Of a stretch of 64,000 nucleotides of DNA, positions 8,261 through 60,910 are shown in pieces (within the stretch, counting starts at the first letter, position 1; every line of letters starts with the position of its first letter). A program made the position numbers and the translations under genes. The DNA comes from Clostridia bacterium. GTDB taxonomy: Bacteria; Bacillota; Thermoanaerobacteria; Thermoanaerobacterales; Thermoanaerobacteraceae. Location: positions 1 to 64,000 of the forward strand of contig DULG01000077.1 of assembly GCA_012840485.1 (NCBI GenBank), read 5' to 3'. The notes under the pieces were generated by a model, which was given only the letters and a program-made list of their open reading frames with translations, made no database searches and had not been told where the DNA came from.

Positions 8261-9748
8261 TTATTTTTCATTTTTTTTATCAAAATTATTCATTTTTGCT
8301 TCATTCCACAGCTTATCCATGTCACTTAATGTCATATCTTCTAATTTTTGTCCATTTTTCATTGCACTGTTTTCAATATAGGAAAATCTCTTTATGAACT
8401 TTTCTACTGTCTTATGAGTAGCATCTTCTGGATCTACTTCCAAAAACCTAGCAACATTAACTACAGCAAAAATCAAATCACCTATTTCCTCAATTACCTT
8501 TTCTTTATTTTTCCCTTTATACACCTCCTTTAATTCCTCTAATTCCTCATAAATTTTAGAAAATGCATCCTCAACCCTATCCCAATCAAAACCTACCTTT
8601 GCTGCTTTTTCCTGTACTTTATAACTTCTCATAAGAGCAGGCATATACCTTGGCACATCTTTTAACACTTCAGTGTAAGAATTTAAATCCTTCTCTTCTT
8701 TTTTTAACTCATCCCATTTCTCCAGCACAGCTTTAGAAGTTTTTATTTCTTCTTTGCCAAAAACATGAGGATGCCTCCCAATCATTTTCTTGCATATGCC
8801 GTCTACTACCTCATCAAAATTGAATGTTCCCCTTTCCGCGGCAATCTGAGAATGAAAAACTACTTGTAAAAGAACATCTCCTAATTCTTCAGCAATTTTA
8901 TCATCCGATTCCTTTTCTATCGCATCAATTACTTCATAACTCTCTTCAATTAAATATTTTTCAAGACTTTTATGGGTTTGTTCTTTATCCCAGGGACATC
9001 CCTTTTCACTTCTTAAAATTTTCATAATTTCTAAAAGGTCATATATATCATATTTTTCTTGAAAAAGCCCTTCTATAGGAGGTATGTACAAAGAAGTTAG
9101 GTAATCAATCCAGCTTATTCTATCAATACTATAAATGGGCATTGTTTTTATTATTTTCCTTTTTTTCATTCCTGCATTTTTTATTAAAGTCACTTCATAA
9201 TTATCTCCATATATTTCTGCTAATTTTAATTTGATTTCTGAAGCAACAAGCCTATCATATATTTGGAGAATTATATTGTGGCATCGTTTGTCCAACTTTT
9301 GTGTATCCAAAGACAAGGCATCGATTATCTTCAGTCCATAGATAGGATCAATTTTTAAATCAGCTATAATTGCATCAACAGAAGAAACAGCCGGTACAAT
9401 TTCTATTGATATATCGGCACAATCTTTACAAAAGTTTAATATGTACTCTACAGATTTTTCTCCAACATAGGGATGCCCTGGAACAGCATATACTACATTT
9501 CGATATTTTTTTACTGCATTTATTATTTCTCGGGCAATATCTTCATAGACTTTTTCAAAAACAGTATTTTTTTCATACATTTTGTCAAAAGTGTCAAAAA
9601 TAATTTCCTTCTCTTTAAGATATGAGACAATGGGATGCTTTTCCGTTCTTAAAAAAAGTTTATCTGCCTCTTCTAGTTTTGTCAATGTTCCTATTGTAAT
9701 ACTATCTGAAAGCCCTGGTCCCAATCCTACTATAAATAATTTATTCAT
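8261..9748 (-). CDS. mazG: tetrapyrrole methylase-MazG fusion (YabN)
   Basis: 495 residues. Residues 1-215 form a SAM-dependent tetrapyrrole-methylase-like domain (LFIVGLGPGLSDSITIGT; VVYAVPGHPYVGE). Residues 225-490 carry two MazG NTP-pyrophosphohydrolase repeats with the metal-binding EExxD pattern (LIEESYEVIDAIE...EELGDVLLQVVFHSQIA). It is thought to remove aberrant NTPs; the methylase substrate is unknown. The ATG at 9748 follows AGAGGTGG; the frame is open 6 codons further. Confidence 0.9.
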   Translation of the reverse strand: MNKLFIVGLGPGLSDSITIGTLTKLEEADKLFLRTEKHPIVSYLKEKEIIFDTFDKMYEKNTVFEKVYEDIAREIINAVKKYRNVVYAVPGHPYVGEKSVEYILNFCKDCADISIEIVPAVSSVDAIIADLKIDPIYGLKIIDALSLDTQKLDKRCHNIILQIYDRLVASEIKLKLAEIYGDNYEVTLIKNAGMKKRKIIKTMPIYSIDRISWIDYLTSLYIPPIEGLFQEKYDIYDLLEIMKILRSEKGCPWDKEQTHKSLEKYLIEESYEVIDAIEKESDDKIAEELGDVLLQVVFHSQIAAERGTFNFDEVVDGICKKMIGRHPHVFGKEEIKTSKAVLEKWDELKKEEKDLNSYTEVLKDVPRYMPALMRSYKVQEKAAKVGFDWDRVEDAFSKIYEELEELKEVYKGKNKEKVIEEIGDLIFAVVNVARFLEVDPEDATHKTVEKFIKRFSYIENSAMKNGQKLEDMTLSDMDKLWNEAKMNNFDKKNEK

Positions 9749-20985: not shown

Positions 20986-21741
20986 TTAAGAATTTCCTTG
21001 AATCTTCCCTTGTTTAGCTACTAATTCTTTTTTCTCTTTTACTTTCTCTTCATCGGCAAGGTAATAATGCCTTATAGCTTTTAAATCATCATCAAGCTCA
21101 TAAACTAGTGGAATTCCTGTAGGAATGTTCAGTTCCATTATCTCTTCATTTGAAAGATCGTCAAGGTACTTCACAAGCCCTCTTAAACTGTTGCCATGGG
21201 CAACTATGAGGACTTTTTTACCGGATTTTATCGTCGGCGCAATTGTTGATTCCCAATACGGAATAACCCTATTAATTGTGTCAATCAAGTTTTCAGTGAG
21301 GGGAATTTCATCTTCAGAAAGGTCAGCATATCTGGGGTCAAAGCCGGGGTATCTTGGGTCATCTTTTGTCAATGCAGGAGGCCTTACATCAGCAGACCTT
21401 CTCCATATTTTTACCTGTTCTTCACCATATTTCTTTGCAGTCTCAGCTTTATTGAGCCCTTGAAGTGCTCCATAATGCCTTTCATTGAGCCTCCATGATT
21501 TATAAACCGGTATCCACATCAGGTCCAATTCATCAAGAACAATCCACAAAGTCCTTATAGCTCTTTTAAGTACAGAAGTAAAAGCATAGTCAAAAGTGTA
21601 TCCTTCTGCTTTTAAAGTCTTACCGCTTTCTCGTGCTTCTTCAATTCCCTTTGGAGATAAGTCAACATCCGTCCAGCCAGTAAACCTGTTTTCCATATTC
21701 CAAACACTTTCTCCATGTCGCAGTAAAACCACTTTGTGCAT
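20986..21741 (-). CDS. gpmA: 2,3-bisphosphoglycerate-dependent phosphoglycerate mutase
   Basis: 251 residues. Phosphohistidine motif [12 protein letters not shown] (H9), [29 protein letters not shown], and second catalytic His in [12 protein letters not shown]. It interconverts 3- and 2-phosphoglycerate in glycolysis. The ATG at 21741 with AGGTGAGG is preferred to upstream in-frame starts. It appears monocistronic. Confidence 0.93.
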
Positions 21742-21859
21742 GACAACCTCACCTTTCACTATTACAAACATTTTCTGCTTTTTCATACTTTATCCTGTTT
21801 TCTTAATTATATCTCATTTACAACTCAATTACAATAGCAAGATAATAATTATCACTTAA

Positions 21860-22254: not shown

Positions 22255-23751
22255 TCAATTATTGAAAATTTTTTCGTAAAGGTCTTTAGCATAGCTTGTT
22301 GGAAGAGGTTCTCCCTCTAAAATTTTAAAAGTTCTTCTTCCATCCTCTTTCCTTTCAGCACGTAGGAAAAGTACATTCTCCAGATTTTTGTCATAAAAGT
22401 GTTTTGCAAATTCATATAGGTGTGTGACATAAAATACTTCTATTTTATTTTCAATGAGTGCTTTAATGATTCCCACAGCAATTTCAGAACCTTCTCTTTC
22501 ATTTGTTGATGAAAAGCTTTCGTTTAACAATAATAGTGAATTTGGTTTTATATTACTTACTATTCTGTCAAATCTTCTAAGTTCTTCGTCGAGTTTTCCA
22601 CTTTCTAATTGTGGATCTTCCTTTCGATAAAAATGGGTAACTATCTTCTTGTTTATATTTGTGGAAAAATAAATTGCAGGAACAAATATTCCGGATTGCA
22701 TCAATATTTGAGCTTGACCAATACTTCGCAAAAATGTCGTTTTCCCACCTCGATTGGCCCCAGTGATTATAAAAAGGTCCTTGCCAGTCGCATTTAACTC
22801 ATTTCCTATAACAGTTTTTCCCTTAGCCAGAGCCAAGCTTACATCATATAATCCAGTAAATTTACGTACTCTTCTGTCCAAATCGTAGGGTTCAGGAAAA
22901 CAAAATGGTGCGTTTAAATTAGAAAGTTTTTCGTATAAATTTATTGCTCCCATGTAGAATGCTAACTCGGACCTTAACTGAATAAAGAATTCTAAAATAT
23001 GGTCTCCAGCATTCGCCAAAGTCTTCGCTATCTGATTTATTGAGCGCTCTCTAATATTTGTCAGAGTCTCTATTCCGGCATCGTCTCGCGGATGTAGGCT
23101 GAAAGTGTAAGAAGGCGGTTTTAAAAAGGCTAATTTTGAGAGCCTCTTTTTAATTAATACCTTTTTGTTAGGCTTTAATAGCTGATAATCTTTGCCTTCA
23201 ATACCTGGCCCTAATTTTGCTTTAATAAAAAACCCACTTTCAAACGTAAGGTCTTTTAATTGTTTTTCTGCGGTAGAAAAAAATTCTTCCGTGAGTTCCT
23301 TCTTTATCGTTGAAAATAATTTTCTAAATCCGGTCGAATCAAATTTTTCATAGTACTCATCAGATATACTTCTTACCTCTCTTAGAAACTTCAAAAACAT
23401 TTTCAATAGGCTAACAGAACTGCTAAGAAGTGATGATACATTTGTTGAAAATATACCAAGCCAGGATTTTTTCTTTGTCTCTATAGCATCAATCGCAAGA
23501 TTATAAATTCTTTCTACTATTGGCTTATTATTTATGCAATCTTTGAAAATATCTTGCCGATACAAGATGGTTGATAAGTCATTTTCGTAAGAAAGTAAGA
23601 CTTTTTTAACAATATCGTAAATGAAAGCATCTTTTTTTGCCATTGCCTCAAATATTACGTCAAGACCAAGGTCTCTTATTAAATCATCATTATATTCTTC
23701 ATGGGACTTAAAATTAAAATTCTGATCTGGGTAAAGCAGAAGGACTTTCAA
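22255..23751 (-). CDS. MutS-like ATPase, second of a pair
   Basis: 498 residues. The C-terminal third is a MutS-type ABC ATPase: Walker A ITGANRGGKTTF (near 330), Walker B LLLLNESFSST with Asn where MutS has Asp, and a kept His in YVTHLYEFA. The N-terminal 300 residues are helical, like MutS core/lever domains; the mismatch-binding and connector domains are absent. It starts at TTG 23751 in a TTGA overlap with the first gene, so the two are probably translated together, possibly as a heterodimer. Controlled by the fluoride riboswitch upstream of the pair. Confidence 0.8.
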   Translation of the reverse strand: MKVLLLYPDQNFNFKSHEEYNDDLIRDLGLDVIFEAMAKKDAFIYDIVKKVLLSYENDLSTILYRQDIFKDCINNKPIVERIYNLAIDAIETKKKSWLGIFSTNVSSLLSSSVSLLKMFLKFLREVRSISDEYYEKFDSTGFRKLFSTIKKELTEEFFSTAEKQLKDLTFESGFFIKAKLGPGIEGKDYQLLKPNKKVLIKKRLSKLAFLKPPSYTFSLHPRDDAGIETLTNIRERSINQIAKTLANAGDHILEFFIQLRSELAFYMGAINLYEKLSNLNAPFCFPEPYDLDRRVRKFTGLYDVSLALAKGKTVIGNELNATGKDLFIITGANRGGKTTFLRSIGQAQILMQSGIFVPAIYFSTNINKKIVTHFYRKEDPQLESGKLDEELRRFDRIVSNIKPNSLLLLNESFSSTNEREGSEIAVGIIKALIENKIEVFYVTHLYEFAKHFYDKNLENVLFLRAERKEDGRRTFKILEGEPLPTSYAKDLYEKIFNN

Positions 23752-25301
23752 CCTTTCAATCTCCTTTCTAATTGCTCGTAAGTAAGACTATATTTTTCTG
23801 CCATTGAGATAGCATATGCTTTTCCATCGGCGGATTTTCTTAAAATCTTATACGTTCTTATCGATGGATCGTGTTTAGAAACCATTGCTACCATACTTAT
23901 TACTTTTTTACCCATAGAGGCGATTTCATCAAGAAATGTTACGTATAAAGTATAACAATCTATATTGAGAATTTTTGAAATAATATTTTTAGCCAGAAAA
24001 ATAGCATCTGATACAGTTGCTGAGGAAAAAGTTTCGTTTAATATTATAAGGCTCATGGGTGTTGTCATATCAATAATTTGTTTTACTTCCAATAGATCAG
24101 ATTCTAATTTTCCCTTTAAATTTTGCACTTTTTCTTCTCTTTCAAAATGAGTAAAGATATTATCGCATAAAAAGATTTTGGCTTTTCTGCCTGGTATTGG
24201 AACTCCAAGTTTTCCGAGGTAATGTACCTGTCCAAACATTCGAGCAAAAGTAGTTTTCCCACCTTGGTTTGGACCTGTAATTACTATCAACCTCTCATCA
24301 TTTTTTAGCCAAAAATCATTTACAACAACATCCTCCTCTTTTTTGATTTTATCATATGCAAGTGCAAGGTCAAATCCTTCATATAGGTAAATTTCATCTT
24401 TACTGGTTATAACTTCTGGGTAACAAAACTTTAACCCTGACTGTTTAAACCTTTTTATGAAATCAAGATATACTATGTAAAACTGAATTTCTTCCGAAAA
24501 TCGTTCTATTACTGGATCCATAAAGCGATAATATTCTGCATAGAAAGAATCAAGCAATTCAAAGGGTTGGGGATAAAATTTTACAACAGCGTTTATAATT
24601 TCATTTTCTACATGATCCATTCCTACTATCGTTGGTATTTTTAGTTCATAATCTTTATTATCTAAGTTCTTAAATTTTTCAAAAGTCTTTATGATATCAT
24701 TTTCATATTCTTCTTCATCTTCCCATTTATATACCATTACTTTCAATCCATCAATGTTAAGACAATATGTTACCTCTTCTAAAGACTCTTTTACTCTTTT
24801 AACCATTTCCTTAAGTTTACTAAAATAGTTACTATTAGTATATTCTGTAAGATATTTTGAAAAGCTTTGTAGCCCTTGAGAAGACAAGTTTTCATTTAAA
24901 AGATATAGGGATAATTTACTGACTGTTTTGGTATACTGATCTACAGCTTCTAACCACCAGCCCTCTTTGTTGTACTGATATTCGAGTTTTTCTGAAAATG
25001 ATAAATCTCTCTTGACATTATTCATTTTATCAACAAATGTTTTGATGGTTTCAAATAAGGACTGATTATTTTCTAGCTCAATAAATACTTCATGCCTGTA
25101 TTTGATTTCTTCGACCTCATTAAGAGGCGTGTAAAAATAGTTAATTAAATTCTTATTTTCTACCCCGCTTGTAATGTTATATATAATTTGTTCTAAGTGA
25201 AGATCTTCAAAAACATTTTGGTTCCTTTCAAAAGTTAGGTTATTTTTTCTTTCAAAATCTTTGAATAATATACTTTTAAAACTGATATTATCACCTCCCA
25301 T
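23748..25301 (-). CDS. MutS-like ATPase, first of a pair
   Basis: 517 residues, related to the next gene. Walker A ITGPNQGGKTTFARMFGQ (near 340), Walker B LIILNETFSSA (Asn for Asp), and the switch His is lost (YVTFLDEIAS). A helical core precedes it; there is no mismatch-recognition domain. The ATG at 25301 is immediately followed by a perfect GGAGGTGAT, so the true start may be a non-standard codon a few bases further in, or the ATG is used with a poor site. Lies 11 nt after the terminator of the fluoride riboswitch. Confidence 0.8.
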   Translation of the reverse strand: MGGDNISFKSILFKDFERKNNLTFERNQNVFEDLHLEQIIYNITSGVENKNLINYFYTPLNEVEEIKYRHEVFIELENNQSLFETIKTFVDKMNNVKRDLSFSEKLEYQYNKEGWWLEAVDQYTKTVSKLSLYLLNENLSSQGLQSFSKYLTEYTNSNYFSKLKEMVKRVKESLEEVTYCLNIDGLKVMVYKWEDEEEYENDIIKTFEKFKNLDNKDYELKIPTIVGMDHVENEIINAVVKFYPQPFELLDSFYAEYYRFMDPVIERFSEEIQFYIVYLDFIKRFKQSGLKFCYPEVITSKDEIYLYEGFDLALAYDKIKKEEDVVVNDFWLKNDERLIVITGPNQGGKTTFARMFGQVHYLGKLGVPIPGRKAKIFLCDNIFTHFEREEKVQNLKGKLESDLLEVKQIIDMTTPMSLIILNETFSSATVSDAIFLAKNIISKILNIDCYTLYVTFLDEIASMGKKVISMVAMVSKHDPSIRTYKILRKSADGKAYAISMAEKYSLTYEQLERRLKG

Positions 25302-25311
25302 GAGAGAAATG

Positions 25312-25350
25312 AAAAAAACTCCTATATGGTAACTACATACCATATAGGAG
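25312..25350 (-). terminator. expression-platform terminator of the fluoride riboswitch
   Basis: A perfect 13-bp stem (25338-25350 with 25319-25331), 6-nt loop, then T7 on the minus strand. Its 5' arm begins with the CTCC that closes the riboswitch pseudoknot, so aptamer folding and termination exclude each other. Confidence 0.92.
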
Positions 25351-25390
25351 CTATCATCCCTTAAGGAAAATTCTGGTGAGCCCCATCACC
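25343..25390 (-). ncRNA. fluoride riboswitch (crcB motif)
   Basis: The minus strand reads GGTGATGGGGCTCACC (P1 hairpin with the conserved GATG), then a short CC-TTAA-GG stem, then GGGATGATAGCTCCTA (conserved TGAT.GCTCC). The pseudoknot GGGGCT with AGCTCC can form with one G-U pair. This matches the crcB consensus point by point in order and spacing. Promoter 20 nt upstream, terminator overlapping its 3' end: fluoride binding should keep the downstream MutS-like pair on. Confidence 0.87.
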
Positions 25391-25409
25391 AATATATATG
25401 TTAATAGAT

Positions 25410-25438
25410 ATTGTAACAAGATATAGAACAAAAGTCAA
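25410..25438 (-). promoter_or_regulatory. promoter of the fluoride riboswitch transcript
   Basis: TTGACT, 17 nt, TACAAT on the minus strand; the predicted start near 25403 is about 12 nt before the aptamer. Confidence 0.85.
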
Positions 25439-58852: not shown

Positions 58853-58885
58853 AAAAAACCTCTCAACGAATGAAAGAGGTTTTTT
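58853..58885 (-). terminator. M-box expression-platform terminator
   Basis: AAAAAACCTCTTTC...GAGAGGTTTTTT on the minus strand. The competing antiterminator pairs CTCAACGAAT (58895-58904) with ATTCGTTGAG inside the terminator. Mg2+-bound aptamer should favour termination. Confidence 0.9.
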
Positions 58886-58904
58886 AACATTTCAATTCGT
58901 TGAG

Positions 58905-59040
58905 CTTTGGCACTATACAGCTTTGGAGCATCCTCCAGCTGCATTAAGTAAAACCTTAATTCGGTAATACTTGTTGACCCGTTAGCATCTCTCGATGTTT
59001 CCGGGCAGCAGCGTATATCTGTATAGGAGCCTCACCTAAC
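58905..59040 (-). ncRNA. M-box (ykoK leader) Mg2+ riboswitch
   Basis: The minus strand carries the M-box landmarks in order: TTAGGTGAGGCTCCTATACAG, CGCTGCTGCCCGGAAACATCG, ATGCTAACGGGTCAACAAGT, and TTAATGCAGCTGGAGGATGC, closing with GCTGTATAGTGCC. P1 is CTATACAG/CTGTATAG. It precedes a Mg2+ ATPase. Confidence 0.97.
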
Positions 59041-59066
59041 GATTGTATTAACTTGTGCCCTTCTAC

Positions 59067-60762: not shown

Positions 60763-60792
60763 AAAAAAAATACCGCGAAATGCGGTATTTTT
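60763..60792 (-). terminator. TPP riboswitch terminator
   Basis: AATACCGC / GCGGTATT with T8 on the minus strand. Its left arm can pair instead with ATGCGG at the aptamer's 3' end (CCGCAT partner), giving the switch. Confidence 0.9.
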
Positions 60793-60793
60793 G

Positions 60794-60885
60794 AGCCGCA
60801 TTCCCTACGGAGGCATTACCCTCATCAGGTTCCAAGGGTTTGGCATCAATGCCATCTCAGCCATTAAGGCTCCCCCAGCGGACAT
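60794..60885 (-). ncRNA. TPP riboswitch (THI element)
   Basis: The minus strand has CTGGGGGAGCC, GGCTGAGATGGCA, AAACCCTTGGAACCTGATGAGG and GTAATGCCTCCGTAGGGAATG, the complete THI box. It precedes thiT. Confidence 0.97.
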
Positions 60886-60910
60886 AACCACCTATTTTGT
60901 TTTCACCTTT

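Follow-up and report, generated by a model that had tools for sequence, protein, structure and literature searches.

A fluoride riboswitch stands directly before two overlapping genes for MutS-like ATPases, here called MutS-A and MutS-B, in a 64,000-nucleotide stretch of DNA from a Clostridia bacterium of the family Thermoanaerobacteraceae (contig DULG01000077.1 of assembly GCA_012840485.1; this whole stretch is hereafter "the window"). What is new is the nature and setting of the partner: MutS-A and MutS-B constitute a distinct MutS-core pair, a subfamily with an Asn-Glu signature in its Walker B motif, and this pair is embedded in fluoride islands. The usual account of fluoride resistance invokes export of the ion and overproduction of the enzymes that it inhibits.

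The association of this aptamer with mutS is itself already known, because the accessible text of Weinberg et al. (2010; PMC2864571) names mutS, as a DNA-repair gene, among the partners of the crcB motif and suggests a connection with DNA damage. A preliminary description of the window, made from its letters by a model, had placed mutS-like genes among the rarer partners of this RNA, and the partnership is borne out by the same source. A 2020 review repeats the suggestion of DNA damage (PMC7266159), and MutS goes unmentioned in a 2024 review of resistance to fluoride (PMC11139923). The locus described here shares with the accessible 2010 text the RNA class, the overlap of aptamer and terminator, and the mutS partner. 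It differs in that the partner is a distinct two-gene MutS-core subfamily that lacks the repair domains and is found in fluoride-resistance islands, where the 2010 text treats mutS as DNA repair. Our literature search found no study of the MutS-A/MutS-B pair; subscription papers lay outside that search, and earlier work may exist.

The riboswitch and its leader

A search with the Rfam fluoride model RF01734, which the preliminary description had proposed, returned a match upstream of MutS-A at 34.2 bits, just above the model's gathering score of 34.0 (E-value 1.1e-5 over the window, 5e-8 over a stretch of it). The conserved GATG and TGAT..CTCC segments, the P1 hairpin and the pseudoknot between loop and 3' strand are all present (Table 1). 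In a set of 22 aptamers, all from the same order, standard pairs fill 98.4% of the stated pair cells, the covariation exceeds that of all 500 shuffles, and RNAalifold recovered the pseudoknot unprompted. Promoter-like sites are weak evidence alone (6 found, with 3.0 expected in shuffles); the position of the one described here relative to the aptamer fits.

The aptamer is followed by an intrinsic terminator with a stem of 15 pairs and a T run, a kind of site of which the shuffles expect 0.0; the RNA fold of positions 25400-25290 has a z-score of -5.6. The first six bases of this terminator, AGCTCC, are also the 3' strand of the pseudoknot, such that the expression platform overlaps the aptamer. 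Because both need this strand, the fluoride-bound aptamer and the terminator are mutually exclusive. The promoter-aptamer-terminator unit of the preliminary description, with its motifs, its pseudoknot and its terminator reusing the pseudoknot strand, in front of two overlapping MutS-like genes rather than an exporter, is thus found as described. Its coordinates, 23748-25438, hold for the first gene and the switch; the second gene extends the unit to 22255.

Table 1. Positions of the leader elements, the MutS genes and a downstream neighbour in the window
Feature	Position	Strand	Details
Promoter-like site	25410..25438	-	TTGACT-17 nt-(TG)TACAAT; consensus match; transcript start expected at ~25403, just before the aptamer
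Fluoride riboswitch aptamer (RF01734)	25338..25399	-	covariance-model match and pair covariation
Aptamer P1	25390-25387 / 25378-25375	-	GGTG / CACC
Aptamer pseudoknot	25384-25379 / 25352-25347	-	GGGGCT / AGCTCC
Intrinsic terminator	25317..25352	-	AGCTCCTATATGGTA-loop-TACCATATAGGAGTT TTTTT; 5' end is the 3' strand of the pseudoknot
Shine-Dalgarno and probable non-standard start	25284..25299	-	GGGAGGTGAT at 25299-25290, ATC at 25286-25284; sequence, orthologue alignment
MutS-A	23748..25301	-	517 aa, MutS-core ATPase (MutS_V, PF00488)
MutS-B	22255..23751	-	498 aa, MutS-core ATPase, paralogue of MutS-A
2,3-BPG-dependent phosphoglycerate mutase (dPGM)	20986..21786	-	468 nt downstream of the pair, same strand

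By its anatomy, the leader would be a transcriptional ON switch, with its fluoride behaviour predicted from the class of the riboswitch. When fluoride is absent, the terminator would fold and transcription would stop. Fluoride, as a complex with Mg, would stabilize the pseudoknot and hold AGCUCC in the aptamer; the terminator would then not form, and mutS-A and mutS-B would be transcribed. Given the riboswitch class, we regard it as very probable indeed that fluoride turns this operon on.

The true start of MutS-A is probably not an ATG, but the ATC at 25286, which follows a strong Shine-Dalgarno sequence by 3 nucleotides and aligns with the initial Met (ATG) of orthologues. This departure from the consensus, another in P3, and an aptamer score just 0.2 bits over the threshold could together mean that the RNA is decaying or matches the model by chance, and that the pair is not fluoride-controlled in this organism. 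We hold this to be highly improbable. The altered P3 remains paired (U-A replaces G-C, and U-G replaces C-G), the pseudoknot and terminator are intact, and the aptamers that precede the same gene pair in syntenic orthologues score 38.6-44.6 bits. A purely fortuitous aptamer was rejected on the basis of these strong orthologous aptamers, the terminator and the pair covariation.

Two further riboswitches, an M-box magnesium riboswitch (58883-59050) and a TPP riboswitch (60784-60886), lie on the minus strand of the window; both are strong Rfam matches.

The MutS-A and MutS-B proteins

The two genes overlap by 4 nucleotides, and both products match MutS_V (PF00488). In a Pfam scan, no other domain exceeded the cut-off in either protein; domains I and II, SMR and KOW were not detected. 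HHalign aligns MutS-A and MutS-B with 100% probability over 456 columns, marking them as full-length paralogues. MutS-A has a Walker A motif of GPNQGGKTT, a Walker B motif of ILNE (N422-E423) and an H-loop, VTF, that lacks the His; the corresponding motifs of MutS-B are GANRGGKTT, LLNE (N410-E411) and VTH, with the His retained. The Asn-Glu form of Walker B occurs in 78 of 78 MutS-A and 68 of 69 MutS-B proteins (146/147 in all), and Asp-Glu in the MutS2, KamC and 583-aa relative proteins compared. The window's own assembly (G000) encodes six MutS_V proteins: MutS1, MutS2, the 583-aa relative, KamC, MutS-A and MutS-B.

In a tree of ATPase domains, in which MutS1 was not included and long branches are present, MutS-A and MutS-B are sister clades outside KamC and MutS2, and KamC groups with MutS2. 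Both proteins score far below the NCBIfam equivalog cut-offs: for MutS1, 78.8 (MutS-A) and 50.3 bits (MutS-B) against 641.7; for MutS2, 68.0 and 63.0 bits against 400; and for KamC, 41.5 and 73.3 bits against 300. Judged by these sequence features, namely a clade of their own, the lack of domains I and II and the Asn-Glu Walker B, MutS-A and MutS-B are not mismatch-repair MutS proteins. Asn-Glu thus provides a simple marker that separates them from repair MutS; current databases name proteins of this type either "DNA mismatch repair protein MutS" or "hypothetical". We infer that the two form a heterodimer, whose ATP sites would be unusual and unlike each other because Asn-Glu is present in both subunits and the H-loop His in MutS-B only.

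The near-invariance of the Walker B Asn in both subunits, and the asymmetry of the H-loops, would also suit a regulator or a sensor of fluoride or phosphate, in which metal fluoride affects the ATPase cycle and the pair signals to the rest of the island. This is quite unlikely, in that the proteins have no known signaling domain, nothing ties them to transcription, and the islands are already under RNA control.

MutS2 (TIGR01069) splits stalled ribosomes by means of its ATPase (PMC10897456), and a kindred role for MutS-A/MutS-B deserves consideration: fluoride might trap translational GTPases or stall ribosomes, which the pair would then recycle as MutS2 does collided ribosomes. That splitting by MutS2 requires its ATPase (PMC10897456), that MutS2 likewise consists of a MutS core without domains I and II, and that HHalign matches MutS-A to MutS2 at 98.6% over about 400 columns, reaching beyond the ATPase, are all consistent with this idea. 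However, MutS_V is the only domain found in MutS-A and MutS-B, whereas KOW and SMR are the domains that recruit MutS2 to ribosomes, and no translation gene recurs among the neighbors examined (see below). We thus consider a ribosome-splitting factor improbable. MutS-A and MutS-B further differ from MutS2 in their length (~500 aa), their Asn-Glu Walker B, their separate clade and their encoding as a heteromeric gene pair.

KamC, with KamB, is the reactivase of lysine 5,6-aminomutase (NF052383/NF052386), and its NCBIfam label is reactivase ATPase. It shares with our proteins the MutS_V ATPase and a similar length, and it is a named protein reactivase. Descent of the pair from a KamC-type reactivase, raised by the first NCBIfam match, was ruled out by score, tree and Walker B. 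KamC groups with MutS2, being much nearer to it in HHalign comparisons than MutS-A is; it has an Asp-Glu Walker B; and it sits in a kam operon beside KamB and the aminomutase subunits (contig C1 of G000). The lysine fermentation cluster there (L093:2356-8452, where L093 is G000:C1) holds KamA, KamB, KamC and both lysine 5,6-aminomutase subunits.

AlphaFold models calculated from shallow alignments have mean pLDDT values of 56 and 50, which are of low confidence. Foldseek with the better model returned MutS structures, and MutS2 is matched by both Foldseek and HHalign. Because the TM-scores were too low for domain placement, we draw no conclusion regarding the clamp. Matches to defense systems in PADLOC were weak P-loop matches and were set aside.

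Conservation of the link and the fluoride islands

Within the same order, a clear full or split MutS-A gene is found in 13 of 24 genomes; the copies in G009 and G001 are broken or distant. An above-threshold aptamer directly precedes MutS-A in ten of these genomes, the window adds an eleventh case, and G021 has one at 33.5 bits; G019 has two aptamer-MutS-A units. A relic persists in G006 (L079:7943-8016 and the bases that follow), where the aptamer and the first MutS-A codons (MPFHSILF...) are kept and the rest of the pair is lost. In G016 (L080:7483-7546), the MutS pair is gone, and the riboswitch lies directly before reading frames of DNA polymerase X (PolX) that are apparently frameshifted.

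Relatives of MutS-A occur at at least 516 loci among public genomes, and the statistics that follow concern the best 80. These span Chloroflexota, Acidobacteriota, Pseudomonadota, Thermodesulfobacteriota, Atribacterota, Nitrospirota, Thermotogae, Spirochaetes, archaea and others. A MutS-A reading frame is present in 78, nearly always overlapped by MutS-B. Aptamers were counted with R1, a model derived with RNAalifold. Because R1 was trained on Thermoanaerobacterales aptamers, the main count is drawn from other lineages, which limits circularity: L107 and L149 are the sole representatives of that order among the 80 loci. An R1 aptamer lies directly upstream of MutS-A (same strand, at most 600 nucleotides away) at 50 of the 80 loci (37 at E<=0.01), against about 1.9 expected if R1 hits were spread evenly. 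At 8 further loci an aptamer heads the run of same-strand genes instead, and at 7 it lies elsewhere in the locus. Rfam's own model revealed no additional upstream aptamer at 12 loci without an upstream R1 match. Among 34 control loci (MutS1, MutS2, KamC and other MutS-like genes), there was one weak aptamer match. The link between aptamer and MutS is therefore not a local accident, but is conserved across many phyla, including archaea.

MutS-A is present in just 10 of 249 sampled genomes of the same phylum, and its tree is at odds with species relationships. This patchy occurrence, together with a gene tree that does not follow the species, identifies MutS-A/MutS-B as a horizontally moving module. 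Forty-five plasmids carry MutS-A.

Several genes recur within 6 kb of the pair. Their counts among the 80 loci may be compared with the ~0.3 loci roughly expected by chance for a given single-copy gene (a span of 12 kb in 3 Mb, over 80 loci): dynamin-like GTPase (17), enolase (14), MFS transporter (14), CrcB (9), DUF6062 (7), P-type ATPase (7), CPA2-type antiporter (6), DUF190-CBS (6), Usp (5), dPGM (5), metallophosphatase (5), CLC (4) and inorganic pyrophosphatase (4). In many relatives and on plasmids, the fluoride riboswitch shares one neighborhood with target enzymes or exporters. One relative, a Thermoanaerobacterium (L074), has four riboswitches in succession, which head MutS-A/MutS-B, an antiporter-Usp-dynamin unit, an enolase-MFS unit and a HEAT/MFS unit; its island enolase is a second copy. 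Among the genomes checked, those with an enolase in the island have two in all (in G022 the one in the island is a fragment), and most genomes without one have a single enolase; the exceptions, G271 and G275, have two, neither in the stretch examined.

The published comparison is the fluoride operon of Enterobacter cloacae FRM, ppaC-uspA-eno-gpmA-crcB-orf5249, whose expression rises 8- to 177-fold with fluoride and which confers resistance (PMC5533749). Features in common with the islands are the fluoride riboswitch, spare fluoride-sensitive enzymes, CrcB, Usp and horizontal transfer. The published operon lists no mutS genes, whereas in the window the aptamer and the MutS pair are accompanied by no more than a nearby dPGM. 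Related plasmid islands, however, carry the pair in an operon facing the FRM-type operon: on E. cloacae pMB6956_1, antiporter-Usp-MutS-A-MutS-B follows a riboswitch of 59.4 bits and stands opposite ppaC-uspA-eno-gpmA-crcB-P-type ATPase, and the same half-island occurs on one E. coli plasmid from waste water. Because a dPGM gene is repeatedly found close to the pair in other phyla, the window's dPGM is possibly a member of the fluoride module. It is a second isoform in this genome, in which a gene for a cofactor-independent-type mutase precedes enolase (G000:C90). The enzyme also recurs in plasmid fluoride islands.

The company that the pair keeps bears on the suggestion that it acts on DNA or nucleotides. 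On that account, fluoride would inhibit pyrophosphatase, skew dNTP pools or cause oxidative damage, and the dimer would recognize or process the resulting lesions. The family name and fold favor it, it is the suggestion of Weinberg et al. in the accessible 2010 text (PMC2864571), and in several Thermoanaerobacterium genomes PolX is the next gene after the pair. Yet MutS-A and MutS-B lack the mismatch-recognition domain I and connector domain II and fall far under the MutS1 cut-offs, the neighbors across phyla are glycolytic, phosphate and transport genes, and no DNA-repair gene recurs among the clusters examined. The adjacency to PolX is limited to one genus and has no cross-phylum support, and the idea of a DNA-repair operon with PolX was abandoned. 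We view action on DNA as unlikely. The preliminary description had proposed that the pair meets either nucleotide or DNA stress or the inhibition of phosphoryl-transfer enzymes; the enolase, pyrophosphatase and phosphoglycerate mutase neighbors favor the latter, extended to metal enzymes, and the former is less favored.

The window's own genome contains four fluoride aptamers. CrcB is present in 18 of 24 relatives, but a search of the whole G000 genome found no CrcB/Fluc match even at E<=10, and no CLC. Its switches must therefore serve a response that is independent of the known exporters. The exporter of this organism, if it has one, may be a riboswitch-controlled CPA2-type antiporter or MFS protein. 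On contig C33 (L007), tandem fluoride aptamers 71 nucleotides apart (L007:9558-9617 and 9689-9748; G000:C33:15557-15747) precede a CPA2-type antiporter and Usp, an arrangement shared with G006, G009 and G017. In another segment of this contig (L007:3945-6635), an aptamer stands before genes for DUF6062, a 112-aa protein, a HEAT-repeat protein and an MFS transporter; fluoride islands in other phyla also contain this DUF6062/HEAT/MFS set.

A proposed role in fluoride survival

Because the MutS pair stands beside spare copies of fluoride-poisoned enzymes in unrelated microbes and on plasmids, it resembles a machine dedicated to fluoride survival, and we think it likely that the pair protects against fluoride. 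In the mechanism that we propose, the products would assemble into a MutS-core heterodimer without mismatch-recognition domains, which would spend ATP on opening or recycling those complexes, of protein or of ribonucleoprotein, that fluoride-metal-phosphate adducts have locked. Ribosome splitting by MutS2 and the servicing of an aminomutase by KamC are the models for such an activity. The neighboring genes would meanwhile supply substitutes for the poisoned enzymes and export fluoride or protons. That the pair remodels fluoride-poisoned complexes, rather than repairing mismatches, has in our estimation about an even chance of being correct, with the client and the chemistry argued by analogy. 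A more specific version, in which a horizontally spread heterodimer reactivates or disassembles fluoride-locked enzymes or ribonucleoproteins and the Asp-to-Asn change in Walker B lets its ATPase run despite metal fluoride, is put forward tentatively and is more doubtful.

Several observations weigh against remodeling. No client gene is strictly tied to the pair; even enolase is near just 14 of the 80 loci. The operon of E. cloacae FRM affords resistance without a MutS pair (PMC5533749). The MutS2 and KamC precedents are analogies only, because MutS-A and MutS-B fall outside both clades. The low confidence of the structural models, the marginal score of the window's aptamer and the PolX genes of Thermoanaerobacterium must be counted here as well.

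That a widely conserved MutS-like pair occurs behind fluoride riboswitches in several phyla, and also on conjugative plasmids, suggests a further response to this ion, one that has been without a mechanism since 2010. If the proposed remodeling activity is true, MutS-A/MutS-B would represent an active repair arm of fluoride resistance, standing beside export and enzyme replacement.

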